The notes: generated from the sequence alone by a model not told the origin. A stretch of DNA of 45,132 nucleotides from an uncultured Bacteroidota bacterium (GCA_903870175.1 CAIQBY010000408.1:1-45132); one strand, 5' to 3'; shown: positions 1,445 through 13,433, counted from the stretch's first letter. Program-made: numbers and translations.

Positions 1445-1693
1445 ATGAACAAAGGAAACAACAAACAAACAAAAATGATTTCCTTTTGGAGAGCTGTTTT
1501 GGAAATGGGGTTTATCATCTTTCTTTTTTACTCCAACCTTTTGATGGGGGAATTTACCAATTCGGGATTAGGTAATAGTAAAGGTTTGATATGGGCGGTA
1601 CAGGATATTTTTACACTAACAAATTTCACTCTTGCAATAGTTTCATCACTCTTCGGTTATTTAGTTTTTGATTTTTTAAGAAACAGAAAATAG
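1445..1693 (+). CDS. Small two-helix membrane protein, kdp cassette copy 1
   Basis: This 82-residue protein has two predicted transmembrane helices, about residues 18-38 and 55-76, joined by a loop containing LLMGEFTNSGLG. It ends in a short basic tail (RNRK). A second protein of the same family is encoded at 5335-5607 and shares FLFYSNLLMGEFT, an SGLG/SGMG loop, a W.QDIFT/WDIFT segment and a FDFxRNR end. Each copy is followed by an OmpL-like porin and then a kdpA. I know no function for it. Its repeated association with KdpA suggests a Kdp-associated small subunit or regulator, but it is longer than classical KdpF (about 29 residues) and I see no clear similarity to KdpF. Confidence 0.8.
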   Translation: MNKGNNKQTKMISFWRAVLEMGFIIFLFYSNLLMGEFTNSGLGNSKGLIWAVQDIFTLTNFTLAIVSSLFGYLVFDFLRNRK

Positions 1694-1757
1694 AAAGAAA
1701 TAAAGTTAAATCCCAAATATATAATACAATTAAACAATAAATAAAAAACAAAACAAA

Positions 1758-3146
1758 ATGAAAAAACAATTATTACTTGTACCACTTATCTGCTTTGCAA
1801 TAGGTGCTGCAGCACAAAAAGATTCGGTGAAACCGATGAAATCACAGATTCCATTTGAAGGACAGGATGGTACCTGGCAGAATGGCAGCGACAGAAGAGA
1901 TTCTGCAGTATTATCGAATAAATACTTTACCGGCTGTATTATGGTGGATGCCAATTACACTTATTCGAGCAATAACCCGAACGACCATACTGTGGTAGGT
2001 TCTACAGCATTGGCGAGAAATAATGAAATGGAAGTTTCGTGTGCTGCCATTGGCGGTGATTTCTCTTATAACGGCGCTCGCGGAAGAATAATGACACAGT
2101 TCGGAACACGCTCAACTGTGGTTCCGCGTAATGATTACAGTCCGTATCGCGGTCAATATGATTTGGCAAATGTGTATCGTTATATCAGCGAAGCATACGG
2201 CGGTTATCATTTTAATAAAATGCACGGCATCAATGTGGATTTTGGAATGTTTATGTCGTATGTAGGGCTTAATTCCTATTATCAGGTGGAGAACTGGGAA
2301 TATCAGGCTTCTTATACTTCTGATAATACACCGTGGTTTTTTAATGGAATGCGTGTTCAGTTGTTCCCTACTGCTAAATTAAAAATTGAACTTTGGCTGA
2401 TTAATGGTTGGCAGAGTTATGGGATGTTCAATGAAATGCCTGGCATGGGAGGAAATATTACCTGGCAACCAAATGAAAATGTAAAATTATTAACCAATGA
2501 TTATTGGGGAAATGATGCTGCATTGATACCCGGAAGACGTCGTTTCCATTCCGATAACAGTTTGCTTGTACGTTATTTTCATAACAAAGTATCGAAAGGA
2601 ATAAGTCAGGCAGCATTATCGTTGACTGCTGATATTGGTGATGAAAAAGGCGATGGTTCCGCTTATGGTTTGGCAGTAAATGGTTTTAAGAAAGGCGATT
2701 CGTTGCATGGACCTGCGCAATACTTTGCAAGTTGGATGATTTATAACCGTATCTGGTTTTATCATAACAAATTTGCATGGACAATCGGCGGTGGTTATAT
2801 GAATAACCCTGGAAGATATTTGGTATTGTACCCTACGGGAGATGCAAGCCCGTTGCCAAATCCGAATAATCCGACAACTACAGCAGGTACTCACCCTTTC
2901 AGTGCCAACCCCGGTGATATATTTGAAGCTTGGGATGCTTCTACTAATATAGAATGGATGCCAAATCAAAGTGTTTCGTTCAGAGTAGAATTTGTACACA
3001 GGGAGGCAAATGTTCCTTATTTTGCCGGACCCGGAGGTGTTACATCACCAACAGGGTATACAACAACAGGGTTGAATTCAACATGGGTGCCTGACTTGGT
3101 AAAATCTGAAAGCAGGATAATATTTTGTGTGTTGTTTAGGATATAA
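1758..3146 (+). CDS. OmpL-like outer-membrane beta-barrel porin, copy 1
   Basis: This 462-residue protein has a signal peptide (residues 1-19, ending AAAQ) and a mature part with alternating aromatic/polar strands, typical of a Bacteroidota outer-membrane beta-barrel (the bbp2/OmpL-like family). Examples are GRIMTQFGTR, YRYISEAYGGYHF, INVDFGMFMSYVG, LWLINGWQSYGMF and VSFRVEFVHREANVPYF. The C-terminal strand ends IIFCVLFRI, with a terminal aromatic-x-Ile pattern as expected for barrel insertion. The protein therefore looks complete. Porins of this family sit in kdp operons of Bacteroidota, presumably letting K+ or small solutes through the outer membrane. A second family member is at 5644-6972, but the two are quite diverged. 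The next gene is kdpA, beyond a tandem array. Confidence 0.88.
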   Translation: MKKQLLLVPLICFAIGAAAQKDSVKPMKSQIPFEGQDGTWQNGSDRRDSAVLSNKYFTGCIMVDANYTYSSNNPNDHTVVGSTALARNNEMEVSCAAIGGDFSYNGARGRIMTQFGTRSTVVPRNDYSPYRGQYDLANVYRYISEAYGGYHFNKMHGINVDFGMFMSYVGLNSYYQVENWEYQASYTSDNTPWFFNGMRVQLFPTAKLKIELWLINGWQSYGMFNEMPGMGGNITWQPNENVKLLTNDYWGNDAALIPGRRRFHSDNSLLVRYFHNKVSKGISQAALSLTADIGDEKGDGSAYGLAVNGFKKGDSLHGPAQYFASWMIYNRIWFYHNKFAWTIGGGYMNNPGRYLVLYPTGDASPLPNPNNPTTTAGTHPFSANPGDIFEAWDASTNIEWMPNQSVSFRVEFVHREANVPYFAGPGGVTSPTGYTTTGLNSTWVPDLVKSESRIIFCVLFRI

Positions 3147-3245
3147 GGGTTGTAGGATAGTGTTTGTTTAGTTGGAAGCAACCCGATGAGCGAAAGTTCA
3201 AAGGGTTGTTTTTGGTAATACTCACCAACTATTGCTTCAATACAA

Positions 3246-3527
3246 GCAACGGTTGCCCGAACAGGAATAATTATTACTCCTATAGAAGCAACGGTTGCCC
3301 GAACAGGAATAATCATTATCCCGACAGAAGCAACGCTTGCCCGAACAGGAATAATCATTATCCCGACAGAAGCAACGCTTGCCCGAACAGGAATAATCAT
3401 TATTCCAACAGAAGCAACGCTTTCCCGAACAGGAATAACCGTTATTCCTACAGGAGCAACGCTTGCCCGAACAGGAATAACCGTTATTCCTATAGAAGCA
3501 ATGATTGCCCGAACAGGAATAATCATT
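3246..3527 (+). repeat. 42-bp tandem array (7 units) of paired palindromes between porin and kdpA
   Basis: Seven units start at 3246, 3288, 3330, 3372, 3414, 3456 and 3498 with exactly 42-bp spacing; the last is cut short. Each unit is an 11-bp palindrome (GCAACGGTTGC type), CCGAACA, a 17-bp palindrome (GGAATAATCATTATTCC type), and a 7-bp spacer such as GACAGAA. Palindrome centres therefore fall every 21 bp. Units 5 and 6 carry a paired change (GGAATAACCGTTATTCC). Unit 7 carries another (GCAATGATTGC). Both keep the symmetry. The array fills most of the 465-bp gap 3147-3611. The flanks hold no recognisable gene. There are no unique spacers, so it is not CRISPR. Confidence 0.95.
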
Positions 3528-3611
3528 CAACATGAAATTGCGCGCGTTGAATTAATGCGTAAGTTAATTGAAAGGTCAAAGAGTATTTAAAAAATTTATA
3601 CAATAAATCAA

Positions 3612-5321
3612 ATGGAACTATTTACTATCATATTCATTTTTATAGTAAGTGTAGCACTTGCTGTTCCGTTTGGGAAATACATTGCAAAAGTGTATGGCGG
3701 GGAAAAAACAATTCTTGACTCTGTGTTCAATCCCATTGAAAAGATTATTTATCGGTTCCTTGGTATTGATGCGATGAAAGAAATGAACTGGAAGCAGCAT
3801 TTAAAAGCGTTGCTTACAGTTAATATTATCTGGTTTCCGCTAACCATGTTCATTCTTATGAATCAAGATTGGCTTCCTTTAAATCCTGATAAAATTCCGG
3901 CAATGTCGTCCGATCTTGCTTTTCATTCAACCTGTGCTTTTATTACCAACTGTTTCCAGCAACACTATTCTGGCGAATCTGGGATGAGTTATTTGTCACA
4001 AATTGTAATTATGTTCTCACTTTTTTTCTTGACTCCTGCTGTTACTTTGGCAGCAATGGCGGTTGTTTTTAATGCGCTGAAAGAAAGAACTACTGAAGCA
4101 CTGGGAAATTTTTATAACTACTATGTAAAATCAATTACACGAATTTTACTTCCGGTTTCCATTATTACTGCAATAATATTTTTGTTTAATGGTATGCCAA
4201 TGACGTTTGAGGGGACCCATACATTTACAACTTTGCAGGGAGATACTGCTCATGTTGCAAGAGGACAAATTGCTGCATTTGAATCTATAAAAATGTTAGG
4301 ATTGGATGGTGGAGGTTACTTTGGTGCAAACTCTGCACATCCTTTTGAAAATCCTAATTTTTTCACTAAGATTATTGAAAATATCTTTCATATACTTCTT
4401 CCTATAGCCACAGTTTTTGCACTTGGTTTTTACCTTAAACGAAAAAAATTAGCATGGATGATTTTTGGAGTAATGACATTCGGGTTTCTATTATTGCTTA
4501 TCCCGACGGTTTATTATGAGTTAAAAGGAAATCCTGCAATTGCTCAAATGGGAATTGATAATTCCATTGGAAATATGGAAGGAAAGGAAATAAGGTTTGG
4601 AACAGCGGCTTCGGCTTACTGGAGTATTACTGCAACAGCATCAATGAATGGTGCAGTAAATTGTATGCACGATAGCTTTATGCCTTTGCCAGGGGGCATG
4701 CAATTGCTTGGGATTATGGTTAATTCTTTATACGGAGGAGTAGGAACAGGAGTACTTGGGTTTTTTATTATTATCATTTTAGCTGTATTTATAGGGAGTT
4801 TAATGATAGGAAGAACAGGGCAGTTTATTGGCAAAAAAATAGGGATGAGGGAAATAAAAATCGCAATGATCATTACGTTATTGCATCCTTTTTTATCCCT
4901 TGTTGGAACAGCCCTTGCCTGTTCTTTCCCAAGTCTTACAACTCCCACACTTAACAACTCTGGGTTTCATGGTTTCAGTGAAATGATTTACGAATATACT
5001 TCCGCCTCTTCCGCCGATGGAAGTGGCTTTGAAGGGTTGGGTGATAATACGCCGTGGTGGAATATCAGTTGCGGTATTGTAATTCTTCTGGGTCGCTTTT
5101 TGCCAATTATCGGTGCAGTTGCTATTGGTGGGATGTTGGCAGGAAAACAGTATGTAGGAGATAGTGTAGGAACTTTGAAAACAGATAATGCAACTTTTGG
5201 CATGATGGTTTTCAGCCTGATTTTTATTGTAGCAGCATTAGCCTTTTTTCCTGCACTAGTATTGGGACCATTTGCAGAACACTTTTCATTGTTTTCAAAC
5301 TATATACTTATTAATTATTAA
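3612..5321 (+). CDS. kdpA: Potassium-transporting ATPase subunit A, paralogue 1
   Basis: KdpA is the ion-selective, channel-like subunit of the Kdp pump. This copy has 569 residues (E. coli about 557) and about ten hydrophobic helices. All four pore-loop regions are recognisable: TNCFQQHYSGE at 112-122, LGLDGGGYFGANSAHPFENP at 229-248, GAVNCMHDSFMPLPGGM at 347-363 and HGFSEMIYEY at 453-462. From memory the usual first loop is TNTNWQ or TNTNLQ and the second LGTNGGGFF, so loops 1 and 2 are unusual here while loops 3 and 4 look normal. The gene follows a 42-bp repeat array and precedes a small membrane protein. kdpA normally lies upstream of kdpB, so this downstream position is itself odd. It may pair with the KdpBC encoded at the window start. 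Confidence 0.95.
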   Translation: MELFTIIFIFIVSVALAVPFGKYIAKVYGGEKTILDSVFNPIEKIIYRFLGIDAMKEMNWKQHLKALLTVNIIWFPLTMFILMNQDWLPLNPDKIPAMSSDLAFHSTCAFITNCFQQHYSGESGMSYLSQIVIMFSLFFLTPAVTLAAMAVVFNALKERTTEALGNFYNYYVKSITRILLPVSIITAIIFLFNGMPMTFEGTHTFTTLQGDTAHVARGQIAAFESIKMLGLDGGGYFGANSAHPFENPNFFTKIIENIFHILLPIATVFALGFYLKRKKLAWMIFGVMTFGFLLLLIPTVYYELKGNPAIAQMGIDNSIGNMEGKEIRFGTAASAYWSITATASMNGAVNCMHDSFMPLPGGMQLLGIMVNSLYGGVGTGVLGFFIIIILAVFIGSLMIGRTGQFIGKKIGMREIKIAMIITLLHPFLSLVGTALACSFPSLTTPTLNNSGFHGFSEMIYEYTSASSADGSGFEGLGDNTPWWNISCGIVILLGRFLPIIGAVAIGGMLAGKQYVGDSVGTLKTDNATFGMMVFSLIFIVAALAFFPALVLGPFAEHFSLFSNYILINY

Positions 5322-5334
5322 GGGGAGGGAAAAG

Positions 5335-5607
5335 TTGCATCTCCTTCGTAAAAAACCAGAAAAAGTGAAGCAAAAATATCAGAAAAAATTAGGACGTTTT
5401 CAAAGAATAATTCTTGAAGTTGGATTCATCTTGTTTCTTTTCTATTCAAATCTTTTGATGGGAGAATTCACTCATTCGGGTATGGGACAAAGTGAAGGAT
5501 TACCATTGGCTGTGTGGGATATTTTTACAAGTGCCAATTTAATTATAGGCATTGTTTTAGCCCTTATCGGGCATTTGATTTTTGATTTCTTTAGAAACAG
5601 ATTATAA
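5335..5607 (+). CDS. Small two-helix membrane protein, kdp cassette copy 2
   Basis: This is a paralogue of the protein at 1445-1693. It shares FLFYSNLLMGEFT, an SGMGQSEGL loop, a WDIFTSAN segment and the C-terminal FDFFRNR. Two transmembrane helices lie in the second and third thirds, and the N-terminal tail is strongly basic (RKKPEKVKQKYQKK). The frame is open back to an ATG at 5272, but that start would overlap kdpA by 50 bases. I prefer TTG 5335 because an AGGGGAGGG Shine-Dalgarno-like run lies just before it (about 90 residues); GTG 5365 is a second option. It is followed by an OmpL-like porin and a kdpA, exactly as copy 1 is. The function is unknown. Confidence 0.72.
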   Translation: MHLLRKKPEKVKQKYQKKLGRFQRIILEVGFILFLFYSNLLMGEFTHSGMGQSEGLPLAVWDIFTSANLIIGIVLALIGHLIFDFFRNRL

Positions 5608-5643
5608 AATAAATGGTATGTACCAAACATTCTTAATTAAATA

Positions 5644-6972
5644 ATGAAAAATATACAATTAATATTTTTTGCATTGAGTATTTTATTTATCAGCCAAATA
5701 ATAAAAGCTCAGAATGATTCCGTAACTGCATTCTCTACAAGAGTATTGGCAAGCCCCTTGCAATCACCGCCATTTCCTGGTTCGGAATGGGATGGAGCGC
5801 CAATAATCGGACTACCTAACGATGAAACGTATTATCCGTTACAAAAGTTCCTGCACCTTGTTAATAAAAAGAACGGGATAAAATTTTATGGATGGGTAGA
5901 TGGTGGTGGTGATATCAGTTCATCAAAATATTCCAATGCACCTACCGCCTACGACCTTGTTCCAAATAGTGTTCAACTCGACCAGGCTATTTTTCGGATT
6001 GAACGTGAACCGAATACTGTACAGACAGAACATGCAGATTGGGGATTTCTCGTTGATAATATTTATGGAATGGACTACCGATATACCATTGCAAAAGGAA
6101 TTTTCAGCGACCAGTTATTAAAACACAATAATCTTTATGGCTATGATCCTGCACAGGTTTATGCACTGCTTTATATTCCAAAGGTTGCCGAAGGAATGCT
6201 TATTAAAGCAGGGCGTTTTATTTCTCCCTCCGATGTTGAAGCGCAATGGGCACCGGATAATTATTTATATTCCCATTCACTAATGTTCACTGTTGACCCT
6301 TACACTTTCACAGGTGTACAGGCTACCATCAGGCTGAGTAAGTATATTCAGGTTGAGGTAGGAGCGCATGGTGGCAATGATGTTGCCCCTTGGAGTAATT
6401 CTTCAAACCTCAACGGCATGGCAATGCTTCGTTGGGTATCAAAAAATAATAACAATTCGCTGTATGGAGGTATTACTTCAATTGGCAAAGGACATTATAC
6501 TAACGAACATGATAATCTGCAAATGGTAGTAGAAACATGGGGGCACCGCTTCAGTAAGAAAGTTCACATGATGACAGAATTGTATTACATGTGGCAATAT
6601 GATGCCCCAATTGGCGGCACTGTAATTGAAGGTCCGCCGGAATCTTATTTTATGGGAACAGGAATGGGCGCTTTGGTTCCGGGCATATCTTCCGCTGTTG
6701 GATTCGTAAATTATTTTCAAATACTTATATCATCCAAAAATTACATCTCAATTCGGAATGATTTTCTGAACGACACCCAGGGAAACAGAACTGGTTATGC
6801 AACGGCTTATTCAAGTCATACCATAGGATTTGCACATCACTTTAATAATACATTTACAATTCGACCAGAGTTAAGATATGAGACCGCTTATGGTAATGGT
6901 ATAACGCCTTATGATAATGGTACTAAAAAAAACCAATATTCTTTAGCGGCAGATTTAATTGTGCGGTTTTAA
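5644..6972 (+). CDS. OmpL-like outer-membrane beta-barrel porin, copy 2
   Basis: This 442-residue protein has a signal peptide (residues 1-22, ending IKAQ) and a beta-barrel body with features of the bbp2/OmpL-like family: GIKFYGWVDGGGDISSS near residues 79-95, WGFLVDNIYGMDYRYT, LLYIPKVAEGMLIKAGRFISP, and a final strand YSLAADLIVRF ending in Phe. It lies between a small membrane protein and a second kdpA (8-base gap), so it is very likely co-transcribed with them. It occupies the same cassette position as the porin at 1758-3146, yet sequence similarity between the two is low. Either the duplication is old or a different family member was recruited. Its probable role is outer-membrane passage of K+ or other small solutes, inferred from position. 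Confidence 0.88.
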   Translation: MKNIQLIFFALSILFISQIIKAQNDSVTAFSTRVLASPLQSPPFPGSEWDGAPIIGLPNDETYYPLQKFLHLVNKKNGIKFYGWVDGGGDISSSKYSNAPTAYDLVPNSVQLDQAIFRIEREPNTVQTEHADWGFLVDNIYGMDYRYTIAKGIFSDQLLKHNNLYGYDPAQVYALLYIPKVAEGMLIKAGRFISPSDVEAQWAPDNYLYSHSLMFTVDPYTFTGVQATIRLSKYIQVEVGAHGGNDVAPWSNSSNLNGMAMLRWVSKNNNNSLYGGITSIGKGHYTNEHDNLQMVVETWGHRFSKKVHMMTELYYMWQYDAPIGGTVIEGPPESYFMGTGMGALVPGISSAVGFVNYFQILISSKNYISIRNDFLNDTQGNRTGYATAYSSHTIGFAHHFNNTFTIRPELRYETAYGNGITPYDNGTKKNQYSLAADLIVRF

Positions 6973-6980
6973 AAATAATC

Positions 6981-8693
6981 ATGTTTCAAAACACTATCGT
7001 TTGCATATTAATATTTATCGGAGTTATGCTTCTTGCCATACCGATAGGGGCTTACATGAGTAAAGTATATGCAGGCAGTGGCAGCCGTCTTGATTTTATA
7101 AAACCCATTGAAAATTTTATCTTTAAATTTTGCCGCATTAATCCTTTGCAGGAAATGAATTGGAAACAATACCTTGTGGCTATGTTTATAATAAATGCAG
7201 TATGGCTGGTGTACGGTTTTGTGGTGCTGATATTTCAAGGGAGTTTATTTTTGAACCCCGCCAATAATCCTTCTATGGAATGGAGTTTAGCTTTAAACTC
7301 TGCAATAAGTTTCGTAACAAGTACTAATTTGCAGCATTATTCGGGCGAAACAGGCGCTACCTATTTATCGCAGTTAAGCGTATTCATGTTTCTGCAGTTT
7401 GTGAGTGCAGCCACAAGTCTTGCAGTGGCAGTGGCAGTAGTTCGCGGCTTGGTTGCGAAAACAGCAACAAACTTGGGGAATTTTTACAGTGATTTTGTAC
7501 TTTCATTAACACGAATATTGTTGCCATTATGTTTAATAACAGGTATTCTTTTTTTATTCAGTGGTGTACCGATGACTTTTCATGGTCCGCAACAGACTAC
7601 TACGCTTCAGGGAGAAAATACAACTGTGGCAACTGGGCCTGTGGCAGCTTTTTTACCGATAAAAGAACTTGGCTCAAATGGAGGAGGTTTTTTTGGTGCC
7701 AATGATGCGCATCCGTTTGAAAACCCGAACTTCTTTACCTTCATTTTACATAGCATTATTGTATTTTTATTACCGATGGCTTTTATTTTTTTCATTGGTA
7801 ATTATTTGAATGCTAAAAAATTTGCGGTGATGATTTTCGCTGTGATGACAGTTGGATTTCTTTTAATTACAATACCAATCATCCGTCAGGAAGTAAGCGG
7901 CAATCCTAAAATTGCAGCAATGGGTATTATGAACAATGGAAATATGGAAGGGAAAGAGATGAGGTTTGGTGCATTTTATTCGGGATATTATGAAGGGGAA
8001 AATTCAGTAATTCCTGCAGGAACTATAGTTGGAATGAATGACAGTTTTATGCCATTGTCAGGTACCTGTATGCTTATCGGTATGAATATAGATGCCTTCT
8101 TTGGCGGGCTTGGAACTGGCTGGGTAAATATGTTTATCTTCTTAATTATTGCTCTTTTTATTGGTAGTTTAATGATTGGAAGGACTTCAGAAATTTTTGG
8201 AAAAAAAATAGGGATTAAAGAAATGCAGATAACAGTAGGAGTTGCTGTCTGTCAAAGTTTAGTTCCTTTAACTTTAACAGGGATTGCTTGTATCATATAT
8301 ATGAATTATCCCGGCGGTAATAATAGTTTGCAATGGCTGACAAATAAAGACGCGCATGGATTTACAACAATGCTATATGAATTTGTTTCGTCCACGGCAG
8401 GCAACGGTGCGGAGTTTTCAGGATTGGTAAATAATACAGTTTTCTGGAATATAGTAACTTCAATAGCCATGTTATCAGGAAGGTTTATACCTATTATAGG
8501 AGCAGTATGGATTGCAGGATTATTAATTGAAAAAACATATATCCCTCCTTCTTACGGAACAATTAAAATAGAAAACAGTACTTTTGCTATCTTTCTTGTT
8601 GCAGTTATTATTGTGTTAAATGCATTGTCTTTATTTCCAAGTTTAATGCTAGGACCTTTGTCCGAACATTATTTAATAAGTAAAATAAATTGA
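6981..8693 (+). CDS. kdpA: Potassium-transporting ATPase subunit A, paralogue 2
   Basis: This second, complete KdpA-family protein has 570 residues. It shares the family framework with the first copy: an EMNWKQ helix start, YSGE, GGGFFGAN.AHPFENPNFFT, NMEGKE.RFG, FIGSLMIGRT and GRFIPIIGAV. Loop 1 is TSTNLQHYSGE (113-123), close to the usual form. Loop 3, GTIVGMNDSFMPLSGTCM (347-364), departs from the usual AVNxMHDSF...GGM pattern: the His is Asn353 and the GG is GT. Loop 4 is HGFTTMLYEF. It is not a recent copy, because divergence from paralogue 1 runs through the whole protein. It sits 8 bases after a porin and 16 bases before a decayed kdpD fragment. Altered ion specificity or regulation is possible but unproven. 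Confidence 0.95.
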   Translation: MFQNTIVCILIFIGVMLLAIPIGAYMSKVYAGSGSRLDFIKPIENFIFKFCRINPLQEMNWKQYLVAMFIINAVWLVYGFVVLIFQGSLFLNPANNPSMEWSLALNSAISFVTSTNLQHYSGETGATYLSQLSVFMFLQFVSAATSLAVAVAVVRGLVAKTATNLGNFYSDFVLSLTRILLPLCLITGILFLFSGVPMTFHGPQQTTTLQGENTTVATGPVAAFLPIKELGSNGGGFFGANDAHPFENPNFFTFILHSIIVFLLPMAFIFFIGNYLNAKKFAVMIFAVMTVGFLLITIPIIRQEVSGNPKIAAMGIMNNGNMEGKEMRFGAFYSGYYEGENSVIPAGTIVGMNDSFMPLSGTCMLIGMNIDAFFGGLGTGWVNMFIFLIIALFIGSLMIGRTSEIFGKKIGIKEMQITVGVAVCQSLVPLTLTGIACIIYMNYPGGNNSLQWLTNKDAHGFTTMLYEFVSSTAGNGAEFSGLVNNTVFWNIVTSIAMLSGRFIPIIGAVWIAGLLIEKTYIPPSYGTIKIENSTFAIFLVAVIIVLNALSLFPSLMLGPLSEHYLISKIN

Positions 8694-8709
8694 GGAGAGA
8701 AATTTAATT

Positions 8710-8976
8710 ATGTCGGAAGAAGAGAATATAGGAACAACTGGTCAGCATTTTCTTGATTTAATACAAAGGTCGAGAAGGGGAGAAGTTTAAAATTTATATC
8801 GGATGAGTGGCGGTGGTAGAAAACTTATCCAATGTTTCAGGAGGATCGTTCTCTTATTTAAAAATGGGTTTGATGTAAAAATAGAATATATTGAAACTCA
8901 TAACAGGGAGGCAATGCAACAGCTTTTGGAGGGATTGCCAATGATTCCAAGAAGGAAAATTTTTAACAAAGAATAG
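8710..8976 (+). pseudogene. Decayed 5' fragment of kdpD
   Basis: This stretch aligns base by base with the first about 260 bases of the intact kdpD at 10927. Shared words include ATGTCGGAAGA, CAGCATTTTCTTGATTTAAT, TTTAAAATTTATATCGG, ATATTGAAACTCATAAC, TTGGAGGGATTGCC and GAAGGAAAATTTTT. Small insertions and deletions break the frame after about 25 codons (QHFLDLIQRSRRGEV then stop), and the Walker A region is destroyed. It ends where kup begins. With the intact kdpD starting right after kup, the kdpD 5' end flanks kup on both sides. This indicates a duplication or rearrangement in which the upstream copy has decayed. Confidence 0.93.
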
Positions 8977-8990
8977 AAACTGAATTATAA

Positions 8991-10925
8991 ATGGAAAGTA
9001 TCAACTTAAAGAAATTATCGTATGCAGGTTTCCTTGTTTCCATTGGCATTGTGTTTGGCGATATCGGTACTTCGCCACTCTACACTTATAAAGCAATTAT
9101 TGAAGACCGGACAGTTACCGAACTGCTTGCCCTCGGCGGTGTTTCGTGTATTTTCTGGACGCTGGTTTTTCAGACAACAATAAAATATGTGTTTATTACC
9201 TTAAGGGCTGATAACCACGGTGAAGGCGGAATATTTTCACTTTATACTTTAATAAGGCGTTATAAAAAGTGGTTGCTTTTCCCAGCCCTTGCAGGTGGAA
9301 GTTTTTTGTTGGCGGATAGTATTATTACTCCTCCAATTTCTGTTTCGTCGGCTATTGAAGGGTTGAAACCTGCTAATCCAGGGTTGCCGGTTATTCAAAT
9401 TGTACTTGTTATTCTTGTTTTGTTGTTTATTATTCAGCGAGCGGGAACTGAAATAATCGGAAAATTCTTTGGACCTATAATGTTAGTGTGGTTTACAATG
9501 ATTGGTGTTATCGGTATATATTCGGTATGGGCTACACCATCAGTGTTTAAGGCTATTAATCCATATTATGCTTATCGTTTATTGACAGAATATCCGCAGG
9601 GATTCTGGTTGCTGGGTGGAGTATTTCTTTGTACCACTGGGGCAGAAGCATTGTATTCGGATTTGGGACATTGTGGTAGAAGAAACATACAGATAAGCTG
9701 GCTGTACGTTAAAATATGTCTGGTGTTTTGTTATTTCGGACAGGCGGCATGGCTGCTGCAACATCAGGGAAGTGCGTTAAATGAATTGAATCCTTTCTTC
9801 GGATTGGTGCCCCAATGGTTTTTAATTCCATGTATTGTAATAGCTACATTAGCTACTATTATTGCAAGTCAGGCACTTATAAGCGGTTCGTTTACACTTG
9901 TTGCGGAAGCTATACGACTTAACTTGTGGCCAAAATTAAGAGTTCGATTTCCTTCAGATATTCGAGGTCAGATTTATATCCCTGCTATCAATTGGTTGTT
10001 GATGATTGCATGTATCGGTGTTACACTTTACTTTAAAGAATCGAAATATATGGAAGCAGCATTTGGTTTATCTGTAACATTAACAATGTTGATGACAACC
10101 ATTTTGTTGAGCTTTTATTTATATGTAAACCGAACTCCGAAGATATTGGTGCTGCTTCTTTTAGTAGTATTTCTTAGTATCGAATTGTCTTTTCTTGTTG
10201 CAAACCTTCGTAAATTCACGCATGGCGGATGGGTAACAATAATGGTTGGTATTTTTATTTTTTTGGTAATGTATATTTGGCATCGCGGCAGCGTAATAAA
10301 AAGCAAACTTCAAAAATTAAAAGAACTGAAACCATATATTCCTATTTTAAAAGAGTTAAGCAATGATTTGTCTGTGCCAAAGTATGCGACCAATCTGGTT
10401 TATCTTACCTCGTCGGCTAACTCTTCAAAAATAGATGAGCGGATTGTTAATTCCATTTTATATAAACAGCCGAAACGTGCGGACATATATTGGTTTGTGC
10501 ACGTGGAGGTGGTTGATACTCCACATCAAATGTCGTATAAAGTGGAAATTATAGAACCTGAAGAGGTGGTATGGATTACGTTTAAATTAGGTTTTAGAAT
10601 TGAGCCTCGAATAAATTTTCTGCTAAGAAACGTAGTAGAAGAAATGGTGAATAATAAAGAAATAAATATTCAAAGTCGATTTGCTTCACTTGAAAAACAT
10701 AATATTGCCGGAGATTTCAGGTTTGTGGTGATGCAACGGTTTTTAAGTTTTGAAAATGAACTATCTTTGAAGAATGGTTTCATATTAAAAACATATTTCA
10801 TGTTAAAAAAATTTAGTTTGCCTGATGAAAAAGAATTTGGTTTGGATTATGATAATGTTACTATTGAAAAATCACCATTGTTATTGAGTTTGCCAAAGGA
10901 AAATAAAATGATTAGAGAATTATAA
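8991..10925 (+). CDS. kup: Low-affinity potassium uptake protein (KUP family)
   Basis: Kup is a secondary K+ importer, probably K+/H+ symport, in the inner membrane. The 644-residue protein has the family order: GDIGTSPLYT at about 23-32, ADNHGEGGIFSLYTLIRR near 83, SIITPPISVSSAIEGL near 108-125 and GAEALYSDLGHCGR near 217. About twelve hydrophobic helices are followed by a soluble C-terminal domain from about residue 430. The length is close to E. coli Kup (622). The gene is inserted within the Kdp locus, between a decayed kdpD fragment and the intact kdpD, and its stop lies one base before the kdpD start. This arrangement joins a low-affinity and a high-affinity K+ system in one apparent transcript. 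Confidence 0.97.
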   Translation: MESINLKKLSYAGFLVSIGIVFGDIGTSPLYTYKAIIEDRTVTELLALGGVSCIFWTLVFQTTIKYVFITLRADNHGEGGIFSLYTLIRRYKKWLLFPALAGGSFLLADSIITPPISVSSAIEGLKPANPGLPVIQIVLVILVLLFIIQRAGTEIIGKFFGPIMLVWFTMIGVIGIYSVWATPSVFKAINPYYAYRLLTEYPQGFWLLGGVFLCTTGAEALYSDLGHCGRRNIQISWLYVKICLVFCYFGQAAWLLQHQGSALNELNPFFGLVPQWFLIPCIVIATLATIIASQALISGSFTLVAEAIRLNLWPKLRVRFPSDIRGQIYIPAINWLLMIACIGVTLYFKESKYMEAAFGLSVTLTMLMTTILLSFYLYVNRTPKILVLLLLVVFLSIELSFLVANLRKFTHGGWVTIMVGIFIFLVMYIWHRGSVIKSKLQKLKELKPYIPILKELSNDLSVPKYATNLVYLTSSANSSKIDERIVNSILYKQPKRADIYWFVHVEVVDTPHQMSYKVEIIEPEEVVWITFKLGFRIEPRINFLLRNVVEEMVNNKEINIQSRFASLEKHNIAGDFRFVVMQRFLSFENELSLKNGFILKTYFMLKKFSLPDEKEFGLDYDNVTIEKSPLLLSLPKENKMIREL

Positions 10926-10926
10926 A

Positions 10927-12060
10927 ATGTCGGAAGATAGCATCAAAGAAACGAATGTTCAGCATTTTCTTGATTTAATTCAAAGGTCAAGAAGAGGGAA
11001 GTTTAAAATTTATATCGGGATGAGTGCCGGTGTGGGCAAAACGTATCGGATGCTTCAGGAGGCGCGGTCGCTGATTAAAAATGGCATTGATGTAAAAATA
11101 GGTTATATTGAAACTCATAACCGGAAAGAAACGCATGAACTGTTGGAGGGATTGCCTTTGATTCCGAGAAGGAAGATTTTTTATAAAGGAAAAGAGCTGG
11201 AGGAATTGGATGTGCAGGCGGTAATTAATTTGCGTCCGGAAGTGGTGATAGTGGATGAACTGGCGCATACAAATATTGAAGGGAGCAAGAATGAAAAACG
11301 TTGGCAGGATGTGTTGGAAATATTGGAGGCTGGGATAAATGTGATAAGTGCGGTAAATATCCAGCATATTGAAAGCTTGAATGAAGAAGTAAAAAAAATT
11401 ACCGGGATTGAAGTGATGGAACGTGTGCCTGATAAAGTGGTAGCGCTTGCTGATGAGGTGGTAAATATTGATTTGACGGCTGATGAACTGATTGTAAGGT
11501 TGAAAGAAGGGAAGATTTATCAGGCGGAAAAGATTGAAGCTGCATTAAAGAATTTTTTTAAAAGTGAGCATATACTTCAATTGCGTGAGCTTGCACTGAA
11601 AGAAGTTGCAACACAAGTAGAGCGAAAAGTGGAAAAAGAAGTGCCTAGACATGTAGCACTTCGGCACGAACGTTTTTTGGCATGCATCAGCAGCAATGAA
11701 AAAAATTCGAAAGAAATAATCAGAAAAACTGCCCGGCTGGCGAGTTATTATAACAGTAAATGGTATGTGCTGTATGTGCAAACTCCAAAGGAAAGTGGGG
11801 ATAAAATTGCACTTGACAAACAACGACATCTTATAAATAACTTTAAACTTGCAACTGAATTAGGCGCAGAAATAATAAAAAAGGAAGGCAAAAACATTGC
11901 CAAAACTATAGCAGAAGAAGCAGAAGAACGTGAAGTAACTACCATTTGTATTGGCAAACCGACTTTTAATATTTTCACTTTTATTTTGGCTACGAATACT
12001 TTTAACGAATTATTAAAAAAATTAAAATCACTGGATATTGATTTAGTTATACTATCATGA
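10927..12060 (+). CDS. kdpD: KdpD N-terminal sensor/USP-domain protein (Bacteroidota short form)
   Basis: This 377-residue cytoplasmic protein corresponds to the N-terminal half of classical KdpD. The KdpD domain has Walker A GMSAGVGKT at 31-39 and the conserved DELAHTN...KRWQD segment near 105-125. It is followed by a universal-stress-protein-like domain from about residue 245 to the end. It stops before any membrane or kinase domain, and its last codon overlaps the next gene by four bases (ATGA). The next gene supplies HAMP, PAS and kinase domains, so the two should act together as a split K+/turgor sensor, as in other Bacteroidota to my knowledge. No KdpE-like response regulator is seen in the window. 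Confidence 0.93.
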   Translation: MSEDSIKETNVQHFLDLIQRSRRGKFKIYIGMSAGVGKTYRMLQEARSLIKNGIDVKIGYIETHNRKETHELLEGLPLIPRRKIFYKGKELEELDVQAVINLRPEVVIVDELAHTNIEGSKNEKRWQDVLEILEAGINVISAVNIQHIESLNEEVKKITGIEVMERVPDKVVALADEVVNIDLTADELIVRLKEGKIYQAEKIEAALKNFFKSEHILQLRELALKEVATQVERKVEKEVPRHVALRHERFLACISSNEKNSKEIIRKTARLASYYNSKWYVLYVQTPKESGDKIALDKQRHLINNFKLATELGAEIIKKEGKNIAKTIAEEAEEREVTTICIGKPTFNIFTFILATNTFNELLKKLKSLDIDLVILS

Positions 12061-13433
12061 AAATAAAAGTAAGATTAACGCTTGGCGTCGGATTGTTGTT
12101 TATGTTTATTATTCTCCTTGCGGTTTTAGGAACGGTTTACATAAATGCTATTAGTAAGGATACTCAGAATATTCTTGTTGCGAATTATAACACACTTGAT
12201 TATTCTCGCAAAATGCTTATGGCATTGGATGAAGATATTACCTTGCCTGTAAGCGAGAAAAAATTCTCTGATAATCTTCACAATCAGCAAAACAATATTA
12301 CAGAAATAGGTGAGAAAGAGCTTACTGATAAGCTCTCTCAGGACTTTGAAGAAATGAAAAAGGATTCAAAAGACAATCGTATTTATATTTCAATACGAAA
12401 AGATTTGACCGATATCATGTTGATTAATATGGAAGCTATTCAGCGGAAAAGTAATGTGGCAAAACAAACCGCGCACAATGCAACGTGGTGGATTTCTATT
12501 TCCGGCGCACTTTGTTTCCTGATTGCTTTTATTTTATTAATTAATTTACCTGGTAATATTGCAAACCCTATAAAAGAATTAACGGAAAGCATTAAAAATA
12601 TTGCCGCAAAAAAATATTCAGAGCGTGTGCATTTCAAAAGCCATAGCGAGTTTGGTGAAGTCGCAAAATCATTCAATACAATGGCTGAAAAACTGGAAGA
12701 ATACAACAGCAGCAATCTTGCCAAAATAATGATGGAGAAGAAGCGAATAGAAATGCTTATAAATAATATGCACGACCCTGTTATCGGGCTTGACGAAAAC
12801 TTGAAAATTCTTTTTACCAATGAAGAAGCGGCAAGTATTATCGGAATGAAACAGGCGGAATTAATTGGTAAAGCTGCGAAAGACCTCGCAGTAAGTAATG
12901 ATTTAGTCAGGCTGCTTATTCAGGATTTAATGATTGCGGAAAGTTTATCTGCAAAAGAAAAAACAAAGCCTATAAAAATTTATGCTGATGGCAAAGAGAG
13001 TTATTTTGAAAAGGAAACATTGCATATTTCTATTGTTCCCACAGGTGAGCAAAACAAAACACTGATCGGGCATGTTATTATTTTAAGAAATGTAACTGAA
13101 TTCAAAGAGTTGGATTTTGCCAAAACAAACTTTATTGCAACTGTTTCGCATGAGCTGAAAACACCTATATCTTCTATTAAAATGAGCCTGCAGCTCTTGG
13201 AGAACAACCAAGTGGGGAAGTTGAATGAAGAACAAAAAAATCTGACAGAAAGTATTAAGGAAGATGCCAATCGTTTGCTTAAAATCACCGGCGAACTTTT
13301 GAACATGACTCAGGTAGAAAGTGGTAATATTCAGCTTTCAATTATTCCGAATGATCCGAAAGAGATTTTGCTTTATGCTACCAATTCAACCAAAACACAG
13401 GCAGAGCAAAAACAAATAAAATTCGATATTTAA
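12057..13433 (+). CDS. Sensor histidine kinase partner of KdpD, cut by an in-frame stop
   Basis: This 458-residue product overlaps kdpD by four bases. Its order is: transmembrane helix 1 (about 8-29), a periplasmic segment, helix 2 (about 144-164), HAMP (165-217), a PAS-like domain (about 230-350) and HisKA with the phospho-accepting His365 in ATVSHELKTPISS. It ends at TAA 13431-13433, before any ATPase domain. The same frame then continues through a complete ATPase domain to 13790, so the original gene was a normal about 577-codon kinase. A single base change would explain the stop. As written the product can be phosphorylated in principle but cannot bind ATP. Strain-specific loss, read-through or a sequencing error are all possible. 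Confidence 0.9.
   Translation: MKIKVRLTLGVGLLFMFIILLAVLGTVYINAISKDTQNILVANYNTLDYSRKMLMALDEDITLPVSEKKFSDNLHNQQNNITEIGEKELTDKLSQDFEEMKKDSKDNRIYISIRKDLTDIMLINMEAIQRKSNVAKQTAHNATWWISISGALCFLIAFILLINLPGNIANPIKELTESIKNIAAKKYSERVHFKSHSEFGEVAKSFNTMAEKLEEYNSSNLAKIMMEKKRIEMLINNMHDPVIGLDENLKILFTNEEAASIIGMKQAELIGKAAKDLAVSNDLVRLLIQDLMIAESLSAKEKTKPIKIYADGKESYFEKETLHISIVPTGEQNKTLIGHVIILRNVTEFKELDFAKTNFIATVSHELKTPISSIKMSLQLLENNQVGKLNEEQKNLTESIKEDANRLLKITGELLNMTQVESGNIQLSIIPNDPKEILLYATNSTKTQAEQKQIKFDI

Follow-up and report, generated by a model that had tools for sequence, protein, structure and literature searches.

Two rare KdpA subfamilies with rebuilt inner filter rings beside a single KdpB in an uncultured Bacteroidota bacterium

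A kdp locus from an uncultured Bacteroidota bacterium encodes, besides a canonical channel subunit (KdpA1 or A1), two further KdpA proteins, A2 and A3. These represent two distinct, rarely found KdpA subfamilies; both are under purifying selection, and the pore of each has been rebuilt in its own way. In total the genome (G000; 3.95 Mb in 423 contigs, 96.6% complete) contains three KdpAs and one KdpB, which is split over two contigs; the locus has one kdpC. The textbook example of a P-type ATPase combined with a channel is KdpFABC, whose filter has, to our knowledge, been probed so far mainly by laboratory mutants. No description of kdpA paralogs of the A2 or A3 type was found in the literature searched, mostly papers available without subscription; automatic annotation labels all three genes plain kdpA, so that such cases are overlooked. 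The core intuition of a preliminary description of this DNA, that the extra KdpAs are kept for a purpose, was right and is sharpened here to two rare rebuilt-filter subfamilies beside a single KdpB.

Results

Organization of the kdp locus

The window, meaning the whole stretch of 45,132 nucleotides that was analysed, is contig C408 of the genome. Its kdp features are, in order:

1-234, + strand: last 77 codons of kdpB; the contig starts within the gene (TIGR01497 positions 603-674)
271-834, + strand: kdpC (PF02669, 6e-72; 96% identity to sister locus L035)
843-1424, + strand: secreted-like 193-aa protein that matches no Pfam family; present in relatives' kdp loci as well
1445-1693, + strand: sm1, two-TM-like small protein with the motif FYSNLLMGEF (91% identity, equivalent position in L035)
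1758-3146, + strand: porin1, BBP2/OmpL-like outer-membrane porin (PF07642, 6e-38; 84% in L035)
3178-3213, + strand: intrinsic terminator past porin1 (-21.2 kcal/mol, z -5.7)
3244-3527: 42-bp tandem repeat between the terminator and kdpA2 (6.8 copies, 91% matches); one frame encodes a repeated ...EATLARTGIIIIP... peptide
3612-5321, + strand: kdpA2, filter-variant paralog (PF03814, 3e-206; ring N-L-M-A; ortholog L185:9670-11367, 82%)
5335-5607, + strand: sm2, TTG start (62% identity to sm1)
5644-6972, + strand: porin2, BBP2 porin of a subfamily differing from porin1 (PF07642, 2e-32; 81% to the L036 porin2)
6981-8693, + strand: kdpA3, filter-variant paralog (PF03814, 3e-182; ring S-S-P-G; orthologs in L038, L059 and L145, 55-79%, signature kept)
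8696-8971, + strand: remnant of the beginning of a kdpD, with a frameshift (DNA 81% identical to the intact kdpD start of the window at 10927)
8991-10925, + strand: kup, secondary K+ transporter (PF02705, 1e-159)
10927-12060, + strand: kdpD sensor domain without kinase (PF02702, 8e-93; NF038185, 1e-107, under the NF038185 cut-off)
12057-13433, + strand: histidine kinase of the kdp locus; the ORF stops in-frame and homologous sequence continues in the same frame to ~13787 (nonsense mutation or sequencing error)

The 193-aa protein is also encoded in the kdp loci L035, L036, L047, L151 and L193; its gene is a conserved component of Bacteroidota kdp loci that has no name.

The beginning of the operon lies on contig C11 (3443 bases), which carries the canonical kdpA and the first 443 aa of KdpB (TIGR01497 positions 4-433) and breaks off within kdpB. 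Measured against KdpB of L035, ~160 codons are absent between C11 and C408. Because the sister genomes G012 (L035) and G027 (L039) carry kdpA-kdpB-kdpC uninterrupted, with A1 identities of 98% and 92%, it is most likely that C11 and C408 adjoin each other across this ~160-codon gap. C11 thus holds the conventional kdpA that had been suspected upstream of the window.

A block placed behind the operon terminator

The order small protein, porin, kdpA does occur twice in succession (1445-5321 and 5335-8693), with every gene where the preliminary description had put it. Its interpretation as a tandem duplicated cassette does not hold: duplication of a single cassette is ruled out by the KdpA clades, the porin subfamilies and the gene orders in relatives. 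In a KdpA tree, a check that had been named beforehand, A2 and A3 fall into separate clades, which speaks against the cassette and leaves the KdpA paralogs standing. Both porins match PF07642, and to that extent belong to one broad family as proposed, but they are of different subfamilies that have only the Pfam domain in common, and pairwise BLAST of porin1 against porin2 gave no useful similarity (E=0.026). The small proteins share 62% identity over 74 aa. Gene orders around kdp differ among L035, L038, L059 and L185, and the triplet twice in a row was absent from all relatives compared.

The closest relative, L035, has the order kdpA-B-C-hyp193-sm1-porin1-terminator-kdpD and a single KdpA in its whole genome. 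A strong stem-loop followed by T's lies past porin1 in both the window and L035 (-20.9 kcal/mol, z -6.1 in the latter) and is conserved despite changes in both arms; directly beyond it the alignment of the two loci fades. The L035 order, the common terminator and the fading alignment show that the kdp transcription unit natively ends with sm1 and porin1, and that A2-sm2-porin2-A3 is a block inserted between the porin1 terminator and kdpD. The first proposed cassette would therefore straddle a terminator. Within the block the intergenic gaps are 13, 36 and 8 bases, so it probably forms a single transcript of its own. The broken kdpD start, 81% identical to that of the window's kdpD, suggests that the block was formerly closed by a kdpD, and the A3-bearing locus L038 likewise ends in kdpD. 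Lying between kdpA3 and kup, 3 bases past kdpA3, this remnant is a trace of recombination. Porin2 is 81% identical to a porin of L036, whereas the KdpA1 of L036 is just 68% identical. Base composition gave no signal of a foreign origin of the block (GC3 0.28-0.32, compared with 0.277 +/- 0.050 elsewhere in the window). No sigma-54-like sites above chance were detected upstream of kdpA1 or in the gaps, and a sigma-70 scan stayed at chance level.

The small protein was considered as a dedicated KdpA partner and rejected, the majority of 80 kept homologous loci having no kdp gene nearby. With just two short patterns, at least 175 members of the FYSNLLMGEF family were found, most of them from Acidobacteriota; the family is widespread in Acidobacteriota and Bacteroidota, and fewer than a quarter of the 80 loci lie near any kdp, kup or BBP2 gene. 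These two-TM-like proteins (e.g., L036:9998-10240 and L070:2905-3135) are very common in Acidobacteriota and their neighbourhoods vary. In the kdp locus L036 the small protein adjoins a Band 7/SPFH gene (L036:10320-11222), and a similar gene occupies the equivalent place in L039 (L039:9038-9940). Kdp loci of Bacteroidota commonly include a BBP2 porin, so the association of porin and kdp is ordinary here.

A2 and A3 are rare, intact and conserved

Both KdpAs are full length, stop-free and above the NCBIfam KdpA equivalog cut-off (TIGR00680; 561.5 bits for A2 and 503.6 for A3, against 387.7). They are ~47-48% identical to one another. About 1,600 genomes were searched for extra KdpAs in overlapping searches, which placed A3 in four genomes (the window's, L038, L059/G724 and G376) and A2 in two (the window's and G639, locus L185). 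In the KdpA tree the A2 and A3 clades are separate; both have 100/100 support, and their stems are long (0.54 and 0.55); owing to this branch length the placement of the A3 stem is uncertain.

The paralogs occupy different positions in their genomes. L185 reads A1-B-C-A2-porin1-kup-kdpD, and L038 (palsa_967) reads A1-B-C-porin1-A3-sm-kdpD. In L059/G724, A3 lies upstream of the kdp locus, behind an OprB porin and another P-type ATPase; the latter (within L059:2128-8568) has Cation_ATPase_N and _C domains and is not KdpB. In G376, A3 stands alone on its own contig, far from kdpB, and the canonical operon is elsewhere; among 250 genomes of the genus of G376, KdpA occurs in 96 and A3 in G376 only. 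Between the window and L038 the A3 proteins are 79% identical, against 64% for KdpA1, 63% for KdpC and 68% for KdpD, which points to a spread of A3 by transfer separate from the rest of the operon.

Orthologs differ little at nonsynonymous sites (dN range 0.11-0.21) and are near saturation at synonymous ones: the A2 pair has a dN of 0.11 with dS saturated, and A3 of the window and L038 a dN of 0.14 with a dS of 2.3. This combination indicates purifying selection on A2 and A3 and bears out the expectation of diverged, long-kept KdpA paralogs. Slow decay of redundant duplicates, or an artefact of assembly, was already disfavoured as an account of the extra copies and is very improbable. The locus does contain real debris (the kdpD remnant at 8696-8971 and the histidine kinase with its in-frame stop), and the assembly is in 423 contigs, but both KdpAs are intact and under selection, their signatures are kept in orthologs of unrelated genomes, and both occur in kdp loci elsewhere. 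In particular, misassembly is unlikely because A2 adjoins kdpC in L185 and A3 lies within the kdp locus of L038.

Each paralog-bearing genome has exactly one KdpB above the cut-off together with a canonical KdpA, and no A2 or A3 was found in a genome lacking a complete kdpABC among the ~1,600 searched. A different arrangement was seen in G179 (L147:3492-18365), where two kdp operons lie near each other; in one of them the kdpA ahead of kdpB is split or decayed, and a long kdpC and then an intact, divergent kdpA (ring NTTN) come after kdpB.

The inner ring of the selectivity filter is rebuilt

Residues were mapped onto E. coli KdpA via its PDB sequence. In that protein Gln116 lies at the filter entrance, Gly232 in the middle, Asn239 and Gly468 at S1, and Glu370 and Arg493 in the vestibule, and Arg400 touches the KdpB P domain (PMC12629597, PMC6255902); the Glu370 position is the tunnel entrance (PMC12629597). 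We defined an inner ring of residues 112/230/343/466, two residues ahead of the glycine-level positions 114, 232, 345 and 468, which would be structurally equivalent to the threonine of TVGYG. Among 107 KdpAs of Bacteroidota and outgroups that are encoded in an operon or as a single copy, 105 have NTSN in this ring and the other 2 NSSN; this regularity, found here, lies outside the curated definition of the KdpA family, and A2 and A3 deviate from it. Both A2 sequences have NLMA, with the additional changes N114F, W/L115Q and N467D. All four A3 sequences have SSPG or, once, SAPG, with Ala at 344 and Asp at the E. coli Glu370 position. Both paralogs keep the filter glycines 232/345/468, Gln116, N239, Arg400 and Arg493.

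Two further extra KdpAs, from other lineages and without a second KdpB, deviate too, with GSSN plus Asp231 and Asp344 in G297 and TTAN in the genome of L110; these also keep the filter glycines, Gln116, Arg400 and Arg493. In each (L148:8696-11539 of G297; L110:3876-7559, an Alphaproteobacteria MAG) a BBP2 porin is followed directly by the second, filter-variant kdpA. With A2, A3, G297 and L110 counted as independent, the ring deviates in 4/4 cases against 2/107 (Fisher p 2.5e-6, relatedness among the 107 ignored). Compared with near-invariant sites elsewhere, filter sites are significantly enriched in changes in A3 (5/15, p=0.018) and not significantly in A2 (4/15, p=0.18). In segment 396-417, A2 has changed 4/12 near-invariant sites (p=0.06 against the rest) and A3 2/12; the A2 changes P402G, E403Q and E410G fall within the KdpB-docking segment around Arg400. 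An AlphaFold2 model of A3 from a 10-row alignment (mean pLDDT 64, filter loops <50) was useless for pore geometry.

The hydrophobic inner ring of A2, together with its changed docking segment, makes a silent or regulatory role possible. We consider it rather improbable that A2, and perhaps A3, are non-conducting regulators that throttle the pump by competing for KdpB-KdpC or by sensing bound K+. Such a role would fit the loss of three of the four polar ring residues in A2 to Leu, Met and Ala, the otherwise intact filter, in which K+ could still bind at S1-S3, and the position of the genes next to kdpD in the window and L038. In A3, however, the ring residues are still small or polar and the tunnel entrance has acquired an acidic one, and we know of no regulatory contact for KdpA.

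Discussion

Proposed alternative channels for one motor

With one KdpB and a canonical KdpA in each paralog-bearing genome, the most parsimonious interpretation has A2 and A3 using the KdpB-KdpC motor on loan. We tentatively favour, at slightly less than even confidence, the idea that they are alternative channel subunits for a shared KdpBC, giving pumps that differ in affinity or selectivity. Exchangeable channel subunits, as imagined in the preliminary description, thus survive as a live hypothesis given diverged KdpAs beside a complete kdpABC with one KdpB; the notion that each had its own small-protein partner does not, since that family lies mostly far from kdp. The fuller model, a P-type ATPase with interchangeable channels in which one KdpB-KdpC pairs with KdpA1, KdpA2 or KdpA3 and the channel made sets affinity and ion selectivity through its S4 ring, is possible and held somewhat more cautiously. 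In such a system A2 and A3 would be expressed under conditions other than, or additional to, those of the main operon and would replace KdpA1 in the complex. An ion would still come in at Gln116, cross the glycine-lined sites S1-S3 and exit by way of the KdpA-KdpB tunnel, meeting at the vestibule side a last ring (S4) that is hydrophobic in A2 (N-L-M-A) and made of small residues in A3 (S-S-P-G). The changed ring would be expected to alter K+ affinity, selectivity among K+, Rb+ and NH4+, or throughput, so that one motor would serve channels tuned to differing ionic conditions.

Work on the E. coli pump is consistent with this model. G232D abolishes selectivity and retains coupling (PMC12629597, PMC6255902). 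Gly232 mutants remain coupled while transporting Rb+ and NH4+, which shows that KdpB accepts whatever the filter passes (PMC12629597), and published filter mutants of E. coli KdpA alter affinity and selectivity with pumping still coupled, KdpB being rather promiscuous (PMC12629597). The case for the proposed assembly with KdpB is strongest for A3; that for A2 is weaker. Several observations count against a shared motor: the hydrophobic inner ring of A2 may block conduction, its docking segment is changed, the lone A3 of G376 lies far from kdpB, and the paralogs are rare.

The lone A3 of G376 raises the prospect of independent working. A2 and A3 might operate without KdpB as passive SKT-type channels for K+ or another cation, similar to TrkH or KtrB and fed by the neighbouring outer-membrane porin; we regard this as unlikely. 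KdpAs outnumber KdpBs in every case, the A3 of G376 has a contig to itself, the extra KdpA of the window, L038, G297 and L110 has a BBP2 porin as its neighbour, and the A3 of L059 sits behind an OprB porin and a P-type ATPase other than KdpB. Set against this, every genome found with A2 or A3 has a complete kdpABC, and Arg400, the contact to the KdpB P domain, is retained in all.

Comparison with known systems

Natural KdpAs with rebuilt filters, retained under selection beside a single motor, would illustrate how evolution can retune pump selectivity, and A2 and A3 would be variants already at hand for finding out which residues of the filter determine affinity and selectivity. Like the subunit of E. 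coli-type KdpFABC, A2 and A3 are full-length members of the KdpA family (PF03814, TIGR00680) with the filter glycines, Gln116, Arg493 and Arg400, in a locus with kdpB, kdpC and kdpD; they differ in that three KdpAs here accompany one KdpB, two of them with a rebuilt inner ring, and in the paralog block past the operon terminator. TrkH and KtrB belong to the same superfamily, and their channel subunits function without a P-type ATPase, whereas the sequences of A2 and A3 are those of KdpAs, and next to their genes no TrkA/KtrA-like partner gene was seen. The E. coli KdpA filter mutants (Q116R, G232D; filter regions III and IV) carry substitutions in the same filter and change affinity and selectivity while staying coupled (PMC12629597). 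Those mutants were made in the laboratory, whereas the changes in A2 and A3 are natural, occur in combination at positions different from those of the mutants (112, 230, 343 and 466), and are kept by selection.
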